A stretch of DNA of 64,000 nucleotides. Source: Nitrososphaera sp. (GTDB lineage Archaea > Thermoproteota > Nitrososphaeria > Nitrososphaerales > Nitrososphaeraceae). A program made the position numbers and the translations under genes. This document shows positions 49,502 to 59,324 of the stretch, piece by piece. The DNA lies in assembly GCA_029263715.1 (NCBI GenBank), contig JAJUFP010000003.1, positions 62,001 to 126,000 of the forward strand, written 5' to 3'. Below the pieces are notes generated by a model. The model saw nothing but the letters and a program-made list of their open reading frames with translations. It was not told the origin of the DNA and searched no databases. Position 1 is the stretch's first letter. Each line of letters begins with the position of its first letter.

Positions 49502-51265
49502 TTATCTTACCGTGACAGACTTGGCCAGGTTGCGCGGATAATCCGGGTCGACGTTCTTGCCAACTGCCAAGTAGTAGGCAAGCAGCTGCAGCGGAATAAC
49601 CTCGACAATCGGGTAGAGCGCCTCTTCGCTAAGGGCCGGTATTGGGATCCAGTAGTCATACACATCTTCCTTGGAGTCAGAAATTCCTACCACTGTGGCC
49701 CCTCTTGCCTTTATTTCATGCGCATTTGAAATTGTATCATTGAATGTAGAGTCATGGGGGTTTAGGATCATCACCACCGTGTTCTTTTCCATCAGTGCCA
49801 GAGGGCCATGCTTCAGCTCACCGGCTGCGATGCCCTCTGCGTGGACGTATGCCAGTTCCTTTACCTTGAGTGCGCCCTCTAGGGCAATCGGGTAGTGCAG
49901 AAATCTCCCAAGTATATACAGGTCCTTGTGGTTCTTGAGCTCCTGCGCCAGCCTCTCTACTGTAGACTTGTTTGATAGCATTCTGTCTACCGCATGGATC
50001 AGCTTTTCCTTGTCTAACCCAAGCTTGCCTTCACTTAACTTGTCAGCTATGGAGTAGATAATGATCAGCTGGGCCGTGAAGCTCTTTGTTGCCGCAACCC
50101 CTATCTCCGGACCGCTGTTTGTACCCAGAAAAGAGTCGCTCATCCTTGCTAGCGAAGACGTTGTAACGTTTACAATGGACAGGATCTTGGTTCCCTGGTT
50201 CTTGGCAAGCCTTACAGAGTCCAGCACGTCAGCAGTCTCGCCGCTCTGCGAGATGGCAATCACGACCGAATCCTTATCCAAAGAGGACAGGATATACTTT
50301 GACTCGCTTGACATTATCGCCTCTACCCTGATCTTGGCATACCTTCCCAGCACATGCTTGGCAACCAGCGCAGAATGGTAGCTGGTTCCGCTTCCCACAA
50401 TGTAAACGTTCTTTGCGGCGGACAGAATCTTGCAGAATTCGTCTATCTTTTCTTCCTCTTGATTGTATGCCCTTATGATGCTGAGTTTTTGCTCGTCGAT
50501 CTCTTTCAGGGTGTGGTGAGCATACTTGCCTTTATCAATGTCCCCAAGCTCCCAGGCAACTTGGGTAATAGGGCGATTGACAGGGTTGCCTTCAAAGTCA
50601 AAGATCTCTACTTTATCATTATCAACAATTGTGATATCGCCGTTGTCCAGAAAGATTGCCTTGTCTGTATGCTCCAGGAATCCAAGTACATCGCTTGAAA
50701 CAAAGTACCCCTCCTTTGCTACGCCGATGATCAGAGGTTCTTCATACCTTGCTCCACCAATAGTTCCGTCCTGGAAGACCGCCACAAACGCATAAGCCCC
50801 CTGCAGCCTCTTGCATGTCTTGATCAAGGACTGCTTGATGCTCTCTGTCTCTATATAATAGCGGTGAAGCAGATGGGCTATGACTTCACTGTCCGTCTCG
50901 CTGGCAAAAATATAGCCCTCCTTGATAAGCTCTGCCTTCAACTCCTTGTAATTTTCAATAATTCCGTTGTGAACTACTGCAATTTTGTTATCACCGGCAG
51001 CATGTGGGTGAGCATTTTTGTCGGTAACACCACCGTGAGTGGCCCACCTCGTGTGACCTATCCCTATGTGACCTGACATATGGCTCATGTCAAGCTTGTT
51101 GTTAACTTCGGCAACCTTTCCTGTCCCCTTGCGAACCAGAAGCTTTCCCTCATCTAAGGTAGCTACACCAACGCTATCATAACCGCGGTACTCCATCCGT
51201 TTTAAGCTGTTAACGAGAATAGGCGCGGCAAAATCCTTGCCTTTGTAACCAATTATGGAACACAT
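49502..51265 (-). CDS. glmS: Glutamine-fructose-6-phosphate aminotransferase
   Basis: Makes glucosamine-6-phosphate from fructose-6-phosphate and glutamine, feeding UDP-GlcNAc and surface glycan synthesis. A 587-residue enzyme with Cys2 as the N-terminal nucleophile (MCSIIGYKG), then GHTRWATHGG, two SIS sugar-binding domains (VGSGTSYHSALVAKHV and SQSGETADVL) and the C-terminal PRNLAKSVTVR. The product pool links to the glycosyltransferase at 58 kb. TATA-like gctttaaatag is about 36 nt upstream, so a short leader is likely. Confidence 0.95.
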   Translation of the reverse strand: MCSIIGYKGKDFAAPILVNSLKRMEYRGYDSVGVATLDEGKLLVRKGTGKVAEVNNKLDMSHMSGHIGIGHTRWATHGGVTDKNAHPHAAGDNKIAVVHNGIIENYKELKAELIKEGYIFASETDSEVIAHLLHRYYIETESIKQSLIKTCKRLQGAYAFVAVFQDGTIGGARYEEPLIIGVAKEGYFVSSDVLGFLEHTDKAIFLDNGDITIVDNDKVEIFDFEGNPVNRPITQVAWELGDIDKGKYAHHTLKEIDEQKLSIIRAYNQEEEKIDEFCKILSAAKNVYIVGSGTSYHSALVAKHVLGRYAKIRVEAIMSSESKYILSSLDKDSVVIAISQSGETADVLDSVRLAKNQGTKILSIVNVTTSSLARMSDSFLGTNSGPEIGVAATKSFTAQLIIIYSIADKLSEGKLGLDKEKLIHAVDRMLSNKSTVERLAQELKNHKDLYILGRFLHYPIALEGALKVKELAYVHAEGIAAGELKHGPLALMEKNTVVMILNPHDSTFNDTISNAHEIKARGATVVGISDSKEDVYDYWIPIPALSEEALYPIVEVIPLQLLAYYLAVGKNVDPDYPRNLAKSVTVR

Positions 51266-54852: not shown

Positions 54853-55383
54853 ATGTCTATAGGAGCCTCAAAAAGAAAAGTGACTGCTGTGATGGCTGGA
54901 ATCATCCTAGTTGCTGCACTTTCAGCAACCGCTTGGTTCCCATCTTATGCAGCAGCGCAGAACGAAGACGGCCAAAGAAGGGTCGGAATAGTACACGGAT
55001 TTGGTGTAGCAGCTAACAGCGACACTGAACAAGGTACAAAAACTATATTTCACATGCTGATTCAACCAGATGATGACGAAGACACTGAAGAGACAGAGTA
55101 CAGTTTAGTTCGTGGAGTGGTTGGGATCGTAGACGATGGTGAGAAAGTAAGGTACACCATGGTCCCTGACACATGGGATATAGCAGTATCAGAAGAGGAC
55201 GAAACCTTTGAAGCATCTGGCCAAGTCGAGAACGAAGACGGAGATGAATTCGACGTACAACTAACTGGTACACACGGCATCGACATAGAGAATGGAGCTA
55301 TATGGGTGATAGAAGGTAGCTTGGAAGGTGAAGATCTAGAATACCAGCTATTCTACATCGCTCTTTCCAGGACGCCCAGTTAA
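54853..55383 (+). CDS. Secreted protein, acidic
   Basis: A 176-residue protein with a signal peptide (residues 1-36, ending YAAAQNED). The mature domain is beta-rich and acidic (DDDEDTEETEY). A ttataaata TATA element near 54826-54834 lies 24-26 nt from the ATG, so the transcript is leaderless. No homology to a known domain. It may be a small surface protein, with a T-rich run after the stop (55403-55411) as terminator. Confidence 0.75.
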   Translation: MSIGASKRKVTAVMAGIILVAALSATAWFPSYAAAQNEDGQRRVGIVHGFGVAANSDTEQGTKTIFHMLIQPDDDEDTEETEYSLVRGVVGIVDDGEKVRYTMVPDTWDIAVSEEDETFEASGQVENEDGDEFDVQLTGTHGIDIENGAIWVIEGSLEGEDLEYQLFYIALSRTPS

Positions 55384-55653: not shown

Positions 55654-56297
55654 ATGAACGACAAACAGCTCTTTTTGCAATGGCTGCCGCGTCTCTGGTC
55701 ACAGCGTTAGTGCTTGCGCCAGTGTTCGCTTCGGCCACAAATGGATTTCTACATGTAATACGATCGAAAATAGTGGTCGACAACGCAGAAGAGGAACTGG
55801 AAGCCAAGTTCATAACAGAAGCTAACATACCAAAAGACGGAAGTGGCGGAGCATTTGGGTACGGCGTCGTAACTTCTCAGACTGATGTGGATGGTACAGT
55901 GCTCGTGACCACAACTCATGCCGGTGTTCTTGACAGCGAGGATCAATCGGACGCCAATGACCCTGAATGGCACAACCACTATGTGAGGGTAGCGGAAGAT
56001 ACCGATGGTCACTGTGATGGCTTGGAAGTGGTTGACATCACGTGGGAATCTCCCGGCAGAGATTTTGAGAGAGACAACAGGGCCTTAATGGGCGACGTCC
56101 CGATGTCCTTTACAGGAACCCACAGTCTTGACAGAGATCGTGAAATATCCTTCGAGGCCGGTGCGCCTGCAGCTGGCATATCATTCACTTTAGAGCCTAT
56201 ATTTGAGGACGATACACTTGTTGCCGTCTGCGTAAACGACGTGACCGTGGCTGACAAGACAGTGATAAAGGAAGCAAGCGACAACGAGTCTGAATAA
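55654..56297 (+). CDS. Secreted protein with a split signal peptide
   Basis: The mature frame starts at ATG 55680 with MAAASLVTALVLAPVFASATNG, lacking the usual basic N-region. A TATA-like gctaaatac centred near 55628 is 26 nt before ATG 55654, whose frame begins MNDKQLF and then stops. The two fragments together would give a normal signal peptide if one base were added near the five-T run at 55672-55676. The mature domain (about 180 residues) is acidic with several Asp/Asn-rich turns. A terminator follows. Coordinates cover both fragments; the true start remains open. Confidence 0.6.
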
Positions 56298-56578: not shown

Positions 56579-58063
56579 ATGAACAACAACGACAAGTCGT
56601 CCTACATGGGCGATATTGAAGATGTCAAACAGGTCATCAAATCATTAAATGATCCTAATAGCGTCGTTAGCGATGAAATTAACCCTTCCATGCAGGTCTC
56701 GTCTGATTACTCTTCAACTGAAAGCCCCCCGCTTGCTGAAAGCATAACTGTGCTCTACGTGGATGCTGATACCAGCTCGCACCTAGAGATGATAAGAAAG
56801 GTTGGAGACCGGTTCATACAGCTTCGGTCCTGCTTTACTGGCAAGGAAGCCTTGGAGTTGCTTACACGTCAAAAGTTCGATGTCATACTTTGTGAGTTAT
56901 CTCTGCCAGACGTTGATACTTTCTATATTATTGAACAATACGCACCAAGAATGCCAATTGTCATAACTTCTGCATTTGAGGATGCAGAGCGCATAAAGAT
57001 GGCTGAAAAGGCCGGCGCTGTAGGATTTATTGCGAAGAATTATTCTGGATTAAGAATTATCATCTCACTTTATACCGCCATCGACAAATGGAAGAAGTAC
57101 GATGATTACGCTTACAAGAAGCGGCTAATCAACAATCCTCATGTAAAAGAAGTACTGCAGACCGTTATGAATAATCCGGCAAAACAACAAGTAAAGCATG
57201 AAATATGGTATGACAACCTGACTCTCGAAACAACGGCGACCAATACAAAGATCTTGGAATCGCTCGTTGACGCCGGCTACATCGGCAAAGAACAAACCGA
57301 GATGACTTTGTCGTGTCCGCATTGCAATTCCATGAACCTCACTCCAAAATACGGTTGTCCAAATTGCGGAGAAAGCAATTTCTCAAGAGGCACCGTACTT
57401 GAGCACAAGTGTGGATTTACTGAATTTGAAAATCGATTCATAAAACCAGATGATGGCAAGCTGGTCTGCCCCAAATGCAACAAAGAATTGAAAACGCTGG
57501 GCGTTGATTACTTTAAGATGGATTCTGCTTTCCGGTGCCAGAAATGCAGTAACGTTTCCATCACGCCAGACACCAGATACAGGTGTAATGATTGTGACCA
57601 CCAAGACTTCAGAATCTCCGAAGGAAACTGGGCTCCATTATACGGCTATTCTCTAAAACCTGAAATGTTTGCAGAGATAAAGCAGAATACAATATCATTA
57701 GATCAGATCAAAGAGTTTCTATCCTCCAAAAGTTTCCAGCTTGACTATGACAACAAGATTGGGATTACACAACCTGAATTGCTGTCATTCGATCTGGTGG
57801 CCCAGAAACCAGGAATTTACGTTGTTGGCGTCATAATGGGCTCTTACATAGAAGAAAACTTCATGAGACTGGTTAAACTGGGAACATTGCCGGGACCTAT
57901 AGATACCAAGATATTCCGATTCGCACTGATGTTCTCCAAACCAACTGATGTCACAAAGTATCTGCTGAAAAAATTTGATATCTACCCGATAGTTACTGAA
58001 GATGAAACAGACATGCTGCTAAAGTTCAAGGGATATTACTCGAACGTTGTAAAAGGTATGTAG
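56579..58063 (+). CDS. Receiver-like regulator with zinc-ribbon TackOD1-type output domain
   Basis: A 494-residue protein. A REC-like fold (about 56-170) has the acidic pocket VDAD (62-64), the Thr/Ser switch (about 130) and Lys153, but the phospho-accepting Asp is Glu106 (VILCELSLPD). After a linker comes a cysteine-rich region with CPHC, CPNC, CPKC, CQKC and CNDC pairs (about 240-345), typical of the thaumarchaeal output domain TackOD1, and a C-terminal domain of about 150 residues. It lies 10 nt upstream of a processive glycosyltransferase, so they are co-transcribed. A cttataag TATA element near 56532-56539 gives a leader of about 18 nt. Confidence 0.85.
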   Translation: MNNNDKSSYMGDIEDVKQVIKSLNDPNSVVSDEINPSMQVSSDYSSTESPPLAESITVLYVDADTSSHLEMIRKVGDRFIQLRSCFTGKEALELLTRQKFDVILCELSLPDVDTFYIIEQYAPRMPIVITSAFEDAERIKMAEKAGAVGFIAKNYSGLRIIISLYTAIDKWKKYDDYAYKKRLINNPHVKEVLQTVMNNPAKQQVKHEIWYDNLTLETTATNTKILESLVDAGYIGKEQTEMTLSCPHCNSMNLTPKYGCPNCGESNFSRGTVLEHKCGFTEFENRFIKPDDGKLVCPKCNKELKTLGVDYFKMDSAFRCQKCSNVSITPDTRYRCNDCDHQDFRISEGNWAPLYGYSLKPEMFAEIKQNTISLDQIKEFLSSKSFQLDYDNKIGITQPELLSFDLVAQKPGIYVVGVIMGSYIEENFMRLVKLGTLPGPIDTKIFRFALMFSKPTDVTKYLLKKFDIYPIVTEDETDMLLKFKGYYSNVVKGM

Positions 58064-58073
58064 AAGCCAAGTC

Positions 58074-59324
58074 ATGGATATTATATCAGATATAGGCATC
58101 TTTTTTCAAGGATTTCTTGTATGGTTAAGTACACTAGATATAGTCAGCCTTTCTCTTCTTGCTATTCTTGTTATCTTCGTTGACCTGTTCAGAAGCATTT
58201 CCAAGACAGTTGTTTTAGCTGCTCACAGCCTGTACAGGCGTCAAAGACCCTTGATACCACGCACTTTGTCTTATCCAAAAATCTCGATATTGATTCCCGC
58301 ACACAACGAGTCGGCGGCCATCAGAAAAACTATACAATCGATACTTGACAACCCTTATCCAAACAAGGAGATTATTGTAATAGATGATCATTCCACAGAT
58401 GACACATATCAGATTGCATCTTCCTTTTCTGGCAGCGGCCTTATCAAATTGGTAAAACGCACCGAAGGCAAAGGATCAAAGTCCGGCGCGGTCAACTATG
58501 GAGCCATTTTCGCTACAGGTGATTATCTGATAGTGATTGATGGGGATACGGTAATTGAAAGAACTGCCTTGATGGAAATGGCAAAATATCTTTCAGAACC
58601 GGGAGTCATAGCCGGCCTTGGAGTGGTCAGGGTGTTAGGGGGGGACGGCGGTGTCAACAATCTACTTACAAAATTACAGGAGTTTGAGTATCTGATCGCC
58701 TTTGAGGTAGGAAGGCGCTTCAATGCGTTGTTCAACCTCCTTATCATTATTCCAGGGGCATTCAGCATATTTTCAAGGGAAGGCGCGCACAGGGTAGGGC
58801 TTTTCGACAAGGATACCATTACCGAGGATTTTGACATTGCCATCAAGCTGCATAAAATAAAAGGCAATATCGCATTCATTCCTAACGCCAGAGCCTGGAC
58901 CTATTGTCCTAACAACCTGCATGCTTGGATAAGGCAGAGGATAAGATGGGCACACGGACAGCTGGCCGTGCTTGCCAAACACAAGGATGCCGGAAGGCAG
59001 ACTTACCAGCATCATCTAAGACTGTCATTCTATGATATGGTGGGCATAGATGTCATTCTCTTGTTCCTGAGGCTGGGCGGCTTTGTCATACTCTTATTCT
59101 CAAATGCGCAACATATCCTCTACACGATAATGCTCATCTTGATATTATACCACTTTAACGAGGTATTGGCATTCCTGACTTCGGTGGCTTTCGCCAAAGA
59201 TAAGGCAAGGTTGAAGTACATCTATCTGGTGCCTGTAATGGTTCTGTTCTACCGGCCGCTGTATTCTGCGGTGCGGCTTTACGCCTACGTGAAATGGATC
59301 TTTGGAACAGAGATCAAGTGGTAA
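58074..59324 (+). CDS. Processive family 2 glycosyltransferase
   Basis: A 416-residue membrane glycosyltransferase of the cellulose/hyaluronan/PgaC type. After an N-terminal helix the GT-A domain has IVIDDHSTDD, the IDGDT metal motif, ITEDFD and QRIRW (Q-x-x-R-W). Three or so membrane segments follow at the C-terminus (YDMVGIDVILLFLRLGGFV and others). It should polymerise a beta-linked polysaccharide while moving it across the membrane. The direct upstream partner is the receiver/zinc-ribbon regulator. No synthase co-factor gene of bacterial type is present. Confidence 0.9.
   Translation: MDIISDIGIFFQGFLVWLSTLDIVSLSLLAILVIFVDLFRSISKTVVLAAHSLYRRQRPLIPRTLSYPKISILIPAHNESAAIRKTIQSILDNPYPNKEIIVIDDHSTDDTYQIASSFSGSGLIKLVKRTEGKGSKSGAVNYGAIFATGDYLIVIDGDTVIERTALMEMAKYLSEPGVIAGLGVVRVLGGDGGVNNLLTKLQEFEYLIAFEVGRRFNALFNLLIIIPGAFSIFSREGAHRVGLFDKDTITEDFDIAIKLHKIKGNIAFIPNARAWTYCPNNLHAWIRQRIRWAHGQLAVLAKHKDAGRQTYQHHLRLSFYDMVGIDVILLFLRLGGFVILLFSNAQHILYTIMLILILYHFNEVLAFLTSVAFAKDKARLKYIYLVPVMVLFYRPLYSAVRLYAYVKWIFGTEIKW

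Follow-up and report, generated by a model that had tools for sequence, protein, structure and literature searches.

In membrane synthases such as PgaC with PgaD, BcsA with its PilZ domain, Alg8 with Alg44, and the PelD system, a regulatory domain in the cytosol or a partner subunit controls the enzyme. These systems use c-di-GMP, whereas the constant partner of the synthase described in the present work is a zinc-ribbon domain, TackOD1. Closest to it are the TackOD1 response regulators described by Galperin et al. (2018; PMC5847659), which have in common with the protein studied here the PF18551 domain, five CxxC pairs together with an H/C motif, and fusions to receivers. The function of TackOD1 was considered obscure in that work, its presence in some bacteria was noted, and a link of TackOD1 to type IV pilus loci has already been published (PMC4858521, PMC5847659). 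In the main text of Galperin et al., no GT2 neighbour is named for TackOD1 and the term 'glycosyl' occurs once, for another fusion. The same paper reports REC-GT2 fusions of Methanobacteriaceae (MTH_548), in which a receiver is likewise coupled to a BcsA-like GT2; unlike the proteins studied here, these are single chains, and the passages describing them do not mention TackOD1 (PMC5847659).

Receivers without the phosphoacceptor Asp, such as ChxR and RitR, form another group for comparison, as in them, too, the acceptor Asp is replaced and a further catalytic residue is missing (PMC4395418, PMC12632262). In contrast to the role proposed below, ChxR acts on DNA (PMC4395418, PMC12632262). Glu is the commonest substitute in Asp-less receivers (26%; Maule et al., PMC4395418) and, of the common replacements, Gly is named there as the one lacking a characterised structure. 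Glu activates some receivers, often being insufficient on its own, and exchange of the Glu of ChxR for Asp or Ala does not abolish constitutive DNA binding (PMC4395418). Bourret et al., who define pseudo-receivers, state that they know of no published functional study of archaeal ones (PMC12632262).

Here we analyse a window, that is, a stretch of 64,000 nucleotides from the archaeon Nitrososphaera sp., in which the gene for a TackOD1 protein (P0001) is followed by a GT2 synthase gene (P0002). In the open-licence literature we found no report of a link between TackOD1 and GT2. By our counts, TackOD1 and GT2 form a genuine unit of wide occurrence.

A TackOD1 protein and a membrane GT2 synthase encoded side by side

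The host genome (1.92 Mb in 14 contigs) contains P0001 as its sole TackOD1 match. A preliminary description of this locus had noted a Glu at residue 106 of a receiver, five CxxC pairs and a GT2 gene 10 nt downstream, and all three observations agree with the open reading frames, the codon (GAG at 56894-56896) and Pfam, the 10 nt being the distance from the stop of P0001 to the GT2 ATG (Table 1).

Table 1. Positions of the features discussed, in window coordinates unless a locus is named.
Feature	Position	Strand	Basis
Pseudo-receiver/TackOD1/PD-(D/E)XK-like protein P0001, 494 aa	56579..58063	+	ORF, translation, Pfam
Receiver-fold domain, residues 52-172	56732..57094	+	Pfam, AlphaFold2, Foldseek, alignments
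TackOD1 zinc-ribbon domain, residues 210-342	57206..57604	+	Pfam PF18551, column conservation (142 sequences)
C-terminal PD-(D/E)XK-fold domain, residues ~366-494, without catalytic E-x-K	57674..58060	+	
Membrane GT2 synthase P0002, 416 aa, PgaC/cellulose-synthase-like	58074..59324	+	Pfam, NCBIfam, PDB match
SIS + glutamine-amidotransferase protein (GlmS-like)	49502..51265	-	ORF; Pfam SIS, GATase_6
Giant GT2-ended proteins	L133:2052-7931; L134:8499-14405; L141:8494-14592; also L223		

Processive GT2 enzymes of the cellulose, hyaluronan or PgaC type are recognised by the motifs D, DxD, TED and Q(Q/R)xRW and by membrane segments. P0002 has both, with DD at 104, DGD at 156, TED at 250, QRIRW at 288 and hydrophobic segments towards both termini, which confirms the catalytic motifs of the preliminary description. 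It matches the Pfam GT2 family (E = 8e-31) and, in the PDB, cellulose synthase (E = 8.8e-15), and is, judged from its sequence, probably a processive synthase. The best NCBIfam model for P0002 was PgaC_IcaA (TIGR03937) with 158.8 bits, which is below the cut-off of 422.3, and the same model was the best one for both bacterial partner GT2s scanned. PF13641 has only four matches in the host genome. A gene for a SIS and GATase_6 protein, to which we give the presumed name GlmS, is located 5.3 kb upstream in the window, and its product shows 59% identity over 396 aa to that of a gene (L224) of genome G263, where a related GT2 gene lies about 0.3 kb from this SIS-domain (GlmS-like) gene. It is possible that the GlmS-like protein of the window supplies amino-sugar precursors, and our guess would be a poly-GlcNAc-like polymer as the product of P0002.

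The TackOD1 domain of P0001 scores 92.6 bits against a PF18551 cut-off of 32 (E = 3e-26). Besides the CxxC pairs, which start at 246, 260, 297, 320 and 336, it has an H276xC278 and a GVDY motif (308-311), and would be expected to bind zinc. Both H276 and C278 are invariant in the clade of five proteins defined below, the window protein showing HxC and its four relatives HXXC, as PMC5847659 writes it. The best 50 Foldseek matches to the model of complete P0001 were receiver-containing chains; residues 199-494 were then modelled separately, and within them residues ~366-494 showed fold similarity to solved PD-(D/E)XK members among the chains that Foldseek ranked. An ExK following FDLVA (404) was found neither in P0001 nor in the 9 sequences of alignment A3.

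Domains flanking TackOD1 vary by lineage. The N-terminus may be a pseudo-receiver, a true receiver or little at all, and the C-terminus is PD-(D/E)XK-like in archaea and GGDEF-like in 4 of 15 bacterial proteins. A single C-terminal domain common to archaea and bacteria was rejected, as hhalign gave a probability of 1% and no profile similarity was seen. When the N-terminal region of bacterial TackOD1 proteins lacking a clear receiver was compared with the receiver, hhalign gave a probability of 21.8% (E = 0.001) over 39 columns only. A restriction of TackOD1 to thaumarchaea, as the preliminary description had it, is too narrow and was rejected, the domain being found in other archaea and in bacteria, which is already stated in PMC5847659.

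The receiver domain of P0001 lacks its phosphoacceptor

In P0001, Pfam Response_reg matched residues 78-156 (E = 4.4e-11), the AlphaFold2 pLDDT of the receiver region was mostly above 90 and its Foldseek matches were receivers. P0001 was aligned with receiver-TackOD1 proteins of bacteria and of search family f2, which we take to be Nitrosopumilaceae. When compared to canonical receivers, P0001 is devoid of the phosphoacceptor Asp and of the acidic pair DD, and possesses the Thr/Ser and the Lys. It had been proposed that the pocket is intact apart from Glu106, and this is correct for VDAD at 61-64 as a motif, for Lys153 and for the presence of a switch residue. However, the acid pair at positions 62-63 is Asp62-Ala63 where canonical receivers have Glu/Asp-Asp, Ser131 holds the place of the switch residue rather than T130, which is Ile in the other four clade members, and Lys153 is followed by Asn154 instead of Pro. 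P0001 falls under the definition of a pseudo-receiver in PMC12632262, according to which one or more of five key residues are missing from a receiver fold; in P0001 the Asp is missing.

In the clade formed by the window protein, L066, L090, L091 and L061, the acceptor position is occupied by E, E, N, D and D, respectively, and position 63 by A, A, D, E and E, with D64, S131, K153 and N154 invariant in all five. Ala63 accompanies Glu106 in 2 of 2 proteins, which are too few for statistics. These two come from one genus, yet neither the tree of TackOD1 nor that of GT2 places them as sisters. A sequencing error is an unlikely source of Glu106, since this Glu and the GT2 downstream of it both recur in L066 (genome G136). 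Among 44 archaeal TackOD1 proteins with a long N-terminus, five (L049, L051, L071, L103, L119) were judged by eye to be non-receivers, and a Pfam scan detected no receiver in L049, L051 and L103. In the 39 remaining receiver-like proteins the acceptor, read by eye from the table, was Asp in 31, Asn in 3, Gly in 3 and Glu in 2 cases. Five of the 31 with Asp (L079, L082, L084, L086, L087) have lost acid pair and Lys, and five bacterial receivers (L161, L162, L167, L172, L173) have Asp, acids, Thr and Lys-Pro all in place. The Gly acceptor belongs to three f2 receiver-TackOD1 proteins (L116, L125, L138) that keep Thr and Lys-Pro and, in two of the three, both acids. Glu106 is an ordinary, minor variation for a protein of its kind.

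Three receiver and three HATPase_c matches are present in the host genome. One of the latter is topoisomerase VI B and two are HisKA kinases, each adjoining one of the other two receivers. An orphan kinase for the P0001 receiver was not found among the receiver and HATPase_c matches of this genome, which is only 93.57% complete, so that a kinase could be missing from it. Because of the Glu, the loss of the second acid and the location of both kinases beside their own receivers, phosphorylation at 106 is unlikely, and to this extent the phosphorylation-independent switch of the preliminary description stands. Some residual pocket chemistry is possible, as Ser131, Lys153 and one acid are retained. 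In the alphaproteobacterial operons of Roseibium and Palleronia, which encode true receivers, Hpt and kinase-like genes occur within a few genes, and one gene family adjoins 7 receiver-TackOD1 loci of f2, its single member scanned being an Hpt.

GT2 genes next to TackOD1 in archaea

We fetched 100 regions around TackOD1 matches, comprising most matches from the family of the window, other non-f2 matches and 40 regions mostly from f2. With the window added and L092 left out, which is only a C-terminal regulator remnant at a contig edge, this gave 100 archaeal TackOD1 genes. For 29 of them the next gene is a same-strand GT2, at gaps of -53 to 110 nt, and for 71 it is not. Among the other genes of the same loci (at least 100 aa, with a called neighbour), a same-strand GT2 is next in 6 of 1,117 (Fisher p = 6e-28). 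By group, the pairing is seen in 16/28 genes of the family of the window, 1/37 of f2 and 12/35 of the others; a convergent GT2 neighbour exists in 5 further loci. Pilus genes mark a second set: within six genes of TackOD1, 22 loci have a gene resembling TadC or TadA, the members of the pilus-locus clusters that were scanned being T2SSF and T2SSE, and none of these 22 is GT2-paired. The archaeal loci split into 34 that are GT2-adjacent, 22 of the pilus class and 44 others, without overlap between the first two. As 22 loci adjoin type IV pilus genes, archaeal TackOD1 is not specific for GT2. In the present survey, unlike in PMC5847659, no gene adjoins TackOD1 more often than GT2 once the pilus class is set aside.

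When the window GT2 was used as query in 70 genomes of the family, 15 matches with E < 1e-40 were obtained, of which 11 lie directly after TackOD1 on the same strand (the window and a G259 remnant included). One match is frame-broken and convergent to TackOD1 in G329, and the remaining three are a second G329 copy ~6 kb from TackOD1, one on G263 contig 294 and one on G244 contig 320, which ends at the GT2 gene. In a search of 300 Thermoproteota genomes, the best 30 loci, read by eye with ~1.5 kb of flank, included five with an adjacent GT2, on the same strand in L183, L190 and L205 (the last from the family of the window) and convergent in L206 and L208.

The Glu had been presented as the defining feature of the pair and as a constitutive 'on' switch, and neither idea is supported, since the acceptor drifts between D, E and N. 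In L091, which has Asp, a GT2 follows after 35 nt; L061, which has Asp too, lies 293 nt from a GT2 that is frame-broken and ~6 kb from an intact one. Because Asp-bearing members of the clade also have GT2 beside or near them, the Glu does not explain the pairing. Furthermore, in 21 of the 29 same-strand GT2-paired genes fewer than 150 residues precede the TackOD1 match, so that a layout like that of the window protein is not possible in them, and 3 more (L049, L051, L103) have no Pfam receiver. Asp-bearing relatives without a GT2 neighbour, which the preliminary description regarded as evidence against its proposal, are absent from the closest clade and exist further off (L079, L082, L084, L086, L087). 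These five, together with L089 and L097, are close family relatives with a receiver for which no GT2 was found within the flanks examined, and among the f2 receiver-TackOD1 proteins, too, there are many in which the Asp is retained and those flanks contain no GT2.

GT2 genes next to TackOD1 in bacteria and on plasmids

The bacterial sample consisted of 793 genomes (398 Pseudomonadota and 395 Bacteroidota), and TackOD1 was above the cut-off in 15 and 12 of them, respectively; the two phylum names are those of records L160 and L164, to which the centre genomes of the samples correspond. At every one of the 29 above-cut-off loci the TackOD1 stop is followed, 44-156 nt on, by the start of a GT2 domain on the same strand, and 27 of 27 are paired if the two centre genomes are left aside. 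Ten below-cut-off loci showed neither a GT2 nor a TackOD1 match above 40 bits. In the scan of genome contigs, 9 of 9 bacterial loci whose contig continues beyond TackOD1 (L159-L167) have GT2 as the next gene, in most cases with an overlap of a few bases; a further locus, L169, reaches the contig edge. That regulator and GT2 belong together was claimed for the window, and the counts of 29/100 in archaea and 29/29 in bacteria make the case stronger than it had been put; co-occurrence of the two genes, on which that claim had been staked, held up.

In a plasmid collection with 17 TackOD1 records, a GT2, recognised with a profile of our own, directly follows TackOD1 in 14 (H1-H9, H11-H15), although record H14 ends within it. 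In H10, one short annotated ORF lies between TackOD1 and GT2, and in the two haloarchaeal records a DUF2334 gene precedes GT2 (H17) or GT2 is absent (H16). The annotation of the gene after GT2 is HlyD-type adaptor in 8 records (H1-H5, H10, H11, H13), TolC with HlyD next in H15, and hypothetical protein in H6-H9. The HlyD and TolC genes point to export of a polymer.

Correlated divergence of TackOD1 and its partner GT2

Tree distances of TackOD1 and of the partner GT2 were correlated with r = 0.79 (43 pairs), a value reached in 0 of 5,000 permutations, and with r = 0.746 in archaea alone (28 pairs). This mirror-tree test leaves shared species history in. L057, L061, L094, L133, L134 and L141, which are fragments or giant fusions, had been omitted. 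Within the flanks examined, the TackOD1-GT2 pair is all that L061, L066, L090 and L091 have in common with the window, and G259 shares with it seven genes downstream of the pair.

Discussion

We read the two genes as one unit, with a probability of roughly 0.62, in which the TackOD1 protein docks on the GT2 and regulates it, the flanking domains being exchangeable inputs. The membrane GT2 would make and extrude a surface polysaccharide, and the upstream TackOD1 protein would be its cytosolic partner, with the zinc-ribbon docking on the synthase and the domains attached to it acting as swappable input modules that set synthase activity. In the window protein these inputs would be the N-terminal pseudo-receiver, without phosphate at 106, and the nuclease-fold C-terminal domain without catalytic residues, and the signal might be read through protein or ligand binding or through dimerisation, not through phosphotransfer. 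It is from sequence comparisons that we infer a direct TackOD1-GT2 contact, control of activity and the nature of the product.

Chance adjacency of TackOD1 and GT2 is rejected by the counts (29/100 versus 6/1,117 in archaea, 29/29 in bacteria), and the adjacency may reflect co-expression only. P0001 could then be a transcriptional or general regulator that is merely co-transcribed, one in which TackOD1 binds some other protein or nucleic acid and whose regulon includes the GT2. The nuclease fold of the C-terminal domain and the presence of TackOD1 in pilus loci as well (PMC4858521, PMC5847659) would fit such a regulator, and so would the weak zinc-ribbon resemblances (best E = 0.005), largely to nucleic-acid proteins, that a TackOD1/C-terminal profile gave among PDB sequences. 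However, GT2 lies directly downstream in all of the sampled bacterial loci, Pfam gives no DNA-binding domain in P0001, and relatives that do not have the flanks of the window still have the pair, and we regard a general regulator as rather unlikely.

The other two alternatives concern the receiver. That Glu106 locks it 'on' and that this constitutive state drives polysaccharide synthesis appears very improbable to us: Glu at this position does activate some receivers (PMC4395418) and recurs in L066, but both proteins with Glu have lost the second acid (Ala63), the rest of the clade has N, D and D with GT2 adjoining or near, and Glu is often insufficient alone, ChxR keeping constitutive DNA binding with Asp or Ala in its place (PMC4395418). 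A receiver that is a decaying relic, a spacer or a dimerisation piece in a constitutive or expression-controlled system would account for the D/E/N drift among five relatives, for the loss of acids and Lys in five relatives without GT2 in reach and for the many GT2-paired archaeal TackOD1 proteins, the majority, that have no receiver. Invariance of D64, S131, K153 and N154 among the five clade members suggests constraint instead, five sequences being no proof, and we think a relic improbable.

Hitherto an orphan among output domains, with no known target, TackOD1 is given one by the GT2 found in 29 of 29 bacterial loci. It is, in our judgement, an even question whether TackOD1 is a general cross-domain adaptor, a regulatory subunit that plugs arbitrary signal domains (true receivers, pseudo-receivers, GGDEF-like and nuclease-fold domains) into membrane GT2 synthases of archaea and bacteria. 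Since Aminobacter, Phyllobacterium and Mesorhizobium carry the operon, soil bacteria that can be cultured are available for testing the role of TackOD1. If the docking of TackOD1 on GT2 is true, it would offer a way into the possible control of surface polysaccharide in these archaea. The window protein would also serve as a natural example of the archaeal pseudo-receivers, on whose function the authors of PMC12632262 are aware of no study.

Further observations on neighbouring genes

Two proteins encoded just upstream of the pair, at 54853-55383 and 55680-56297 of the window, are hydrophobic at the N-terminus and may be secreted; Pfam gave no match for either up to E = 1. On a haloarchaeal plasmid (L217), a short TackOD1-like gene, a DUF2334 gene and GT2 stand in a row, and on an Aeromonas caviae plasmid (L216) a TackOD1 protein annotated as 'diguanylate cyclase' is followed by GT2, TolC and HlyD. 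Giant proteins (~2000 aa) with a GT2 domain at the C-terminus are encoded convergently, at 13-18 nt, to f2 receiver-TackOD1 genes; the one scanned, L133, has NHL/Vgb repeats and DM13 ahead of GT2, and on G244 contig 320 GT2 stands behind apparent propeller repeats. In other Thermoproteota (L180, L182, L186, L187), stand-alone TackOD1 genes are arranged tail-to-tail with GH114_assoc genes (E from 7.6e-5 to 3.9e-8, matches that rest on the part of the gene within the flanks examined), and these neighbours are perhaps polysaccharide-related too.
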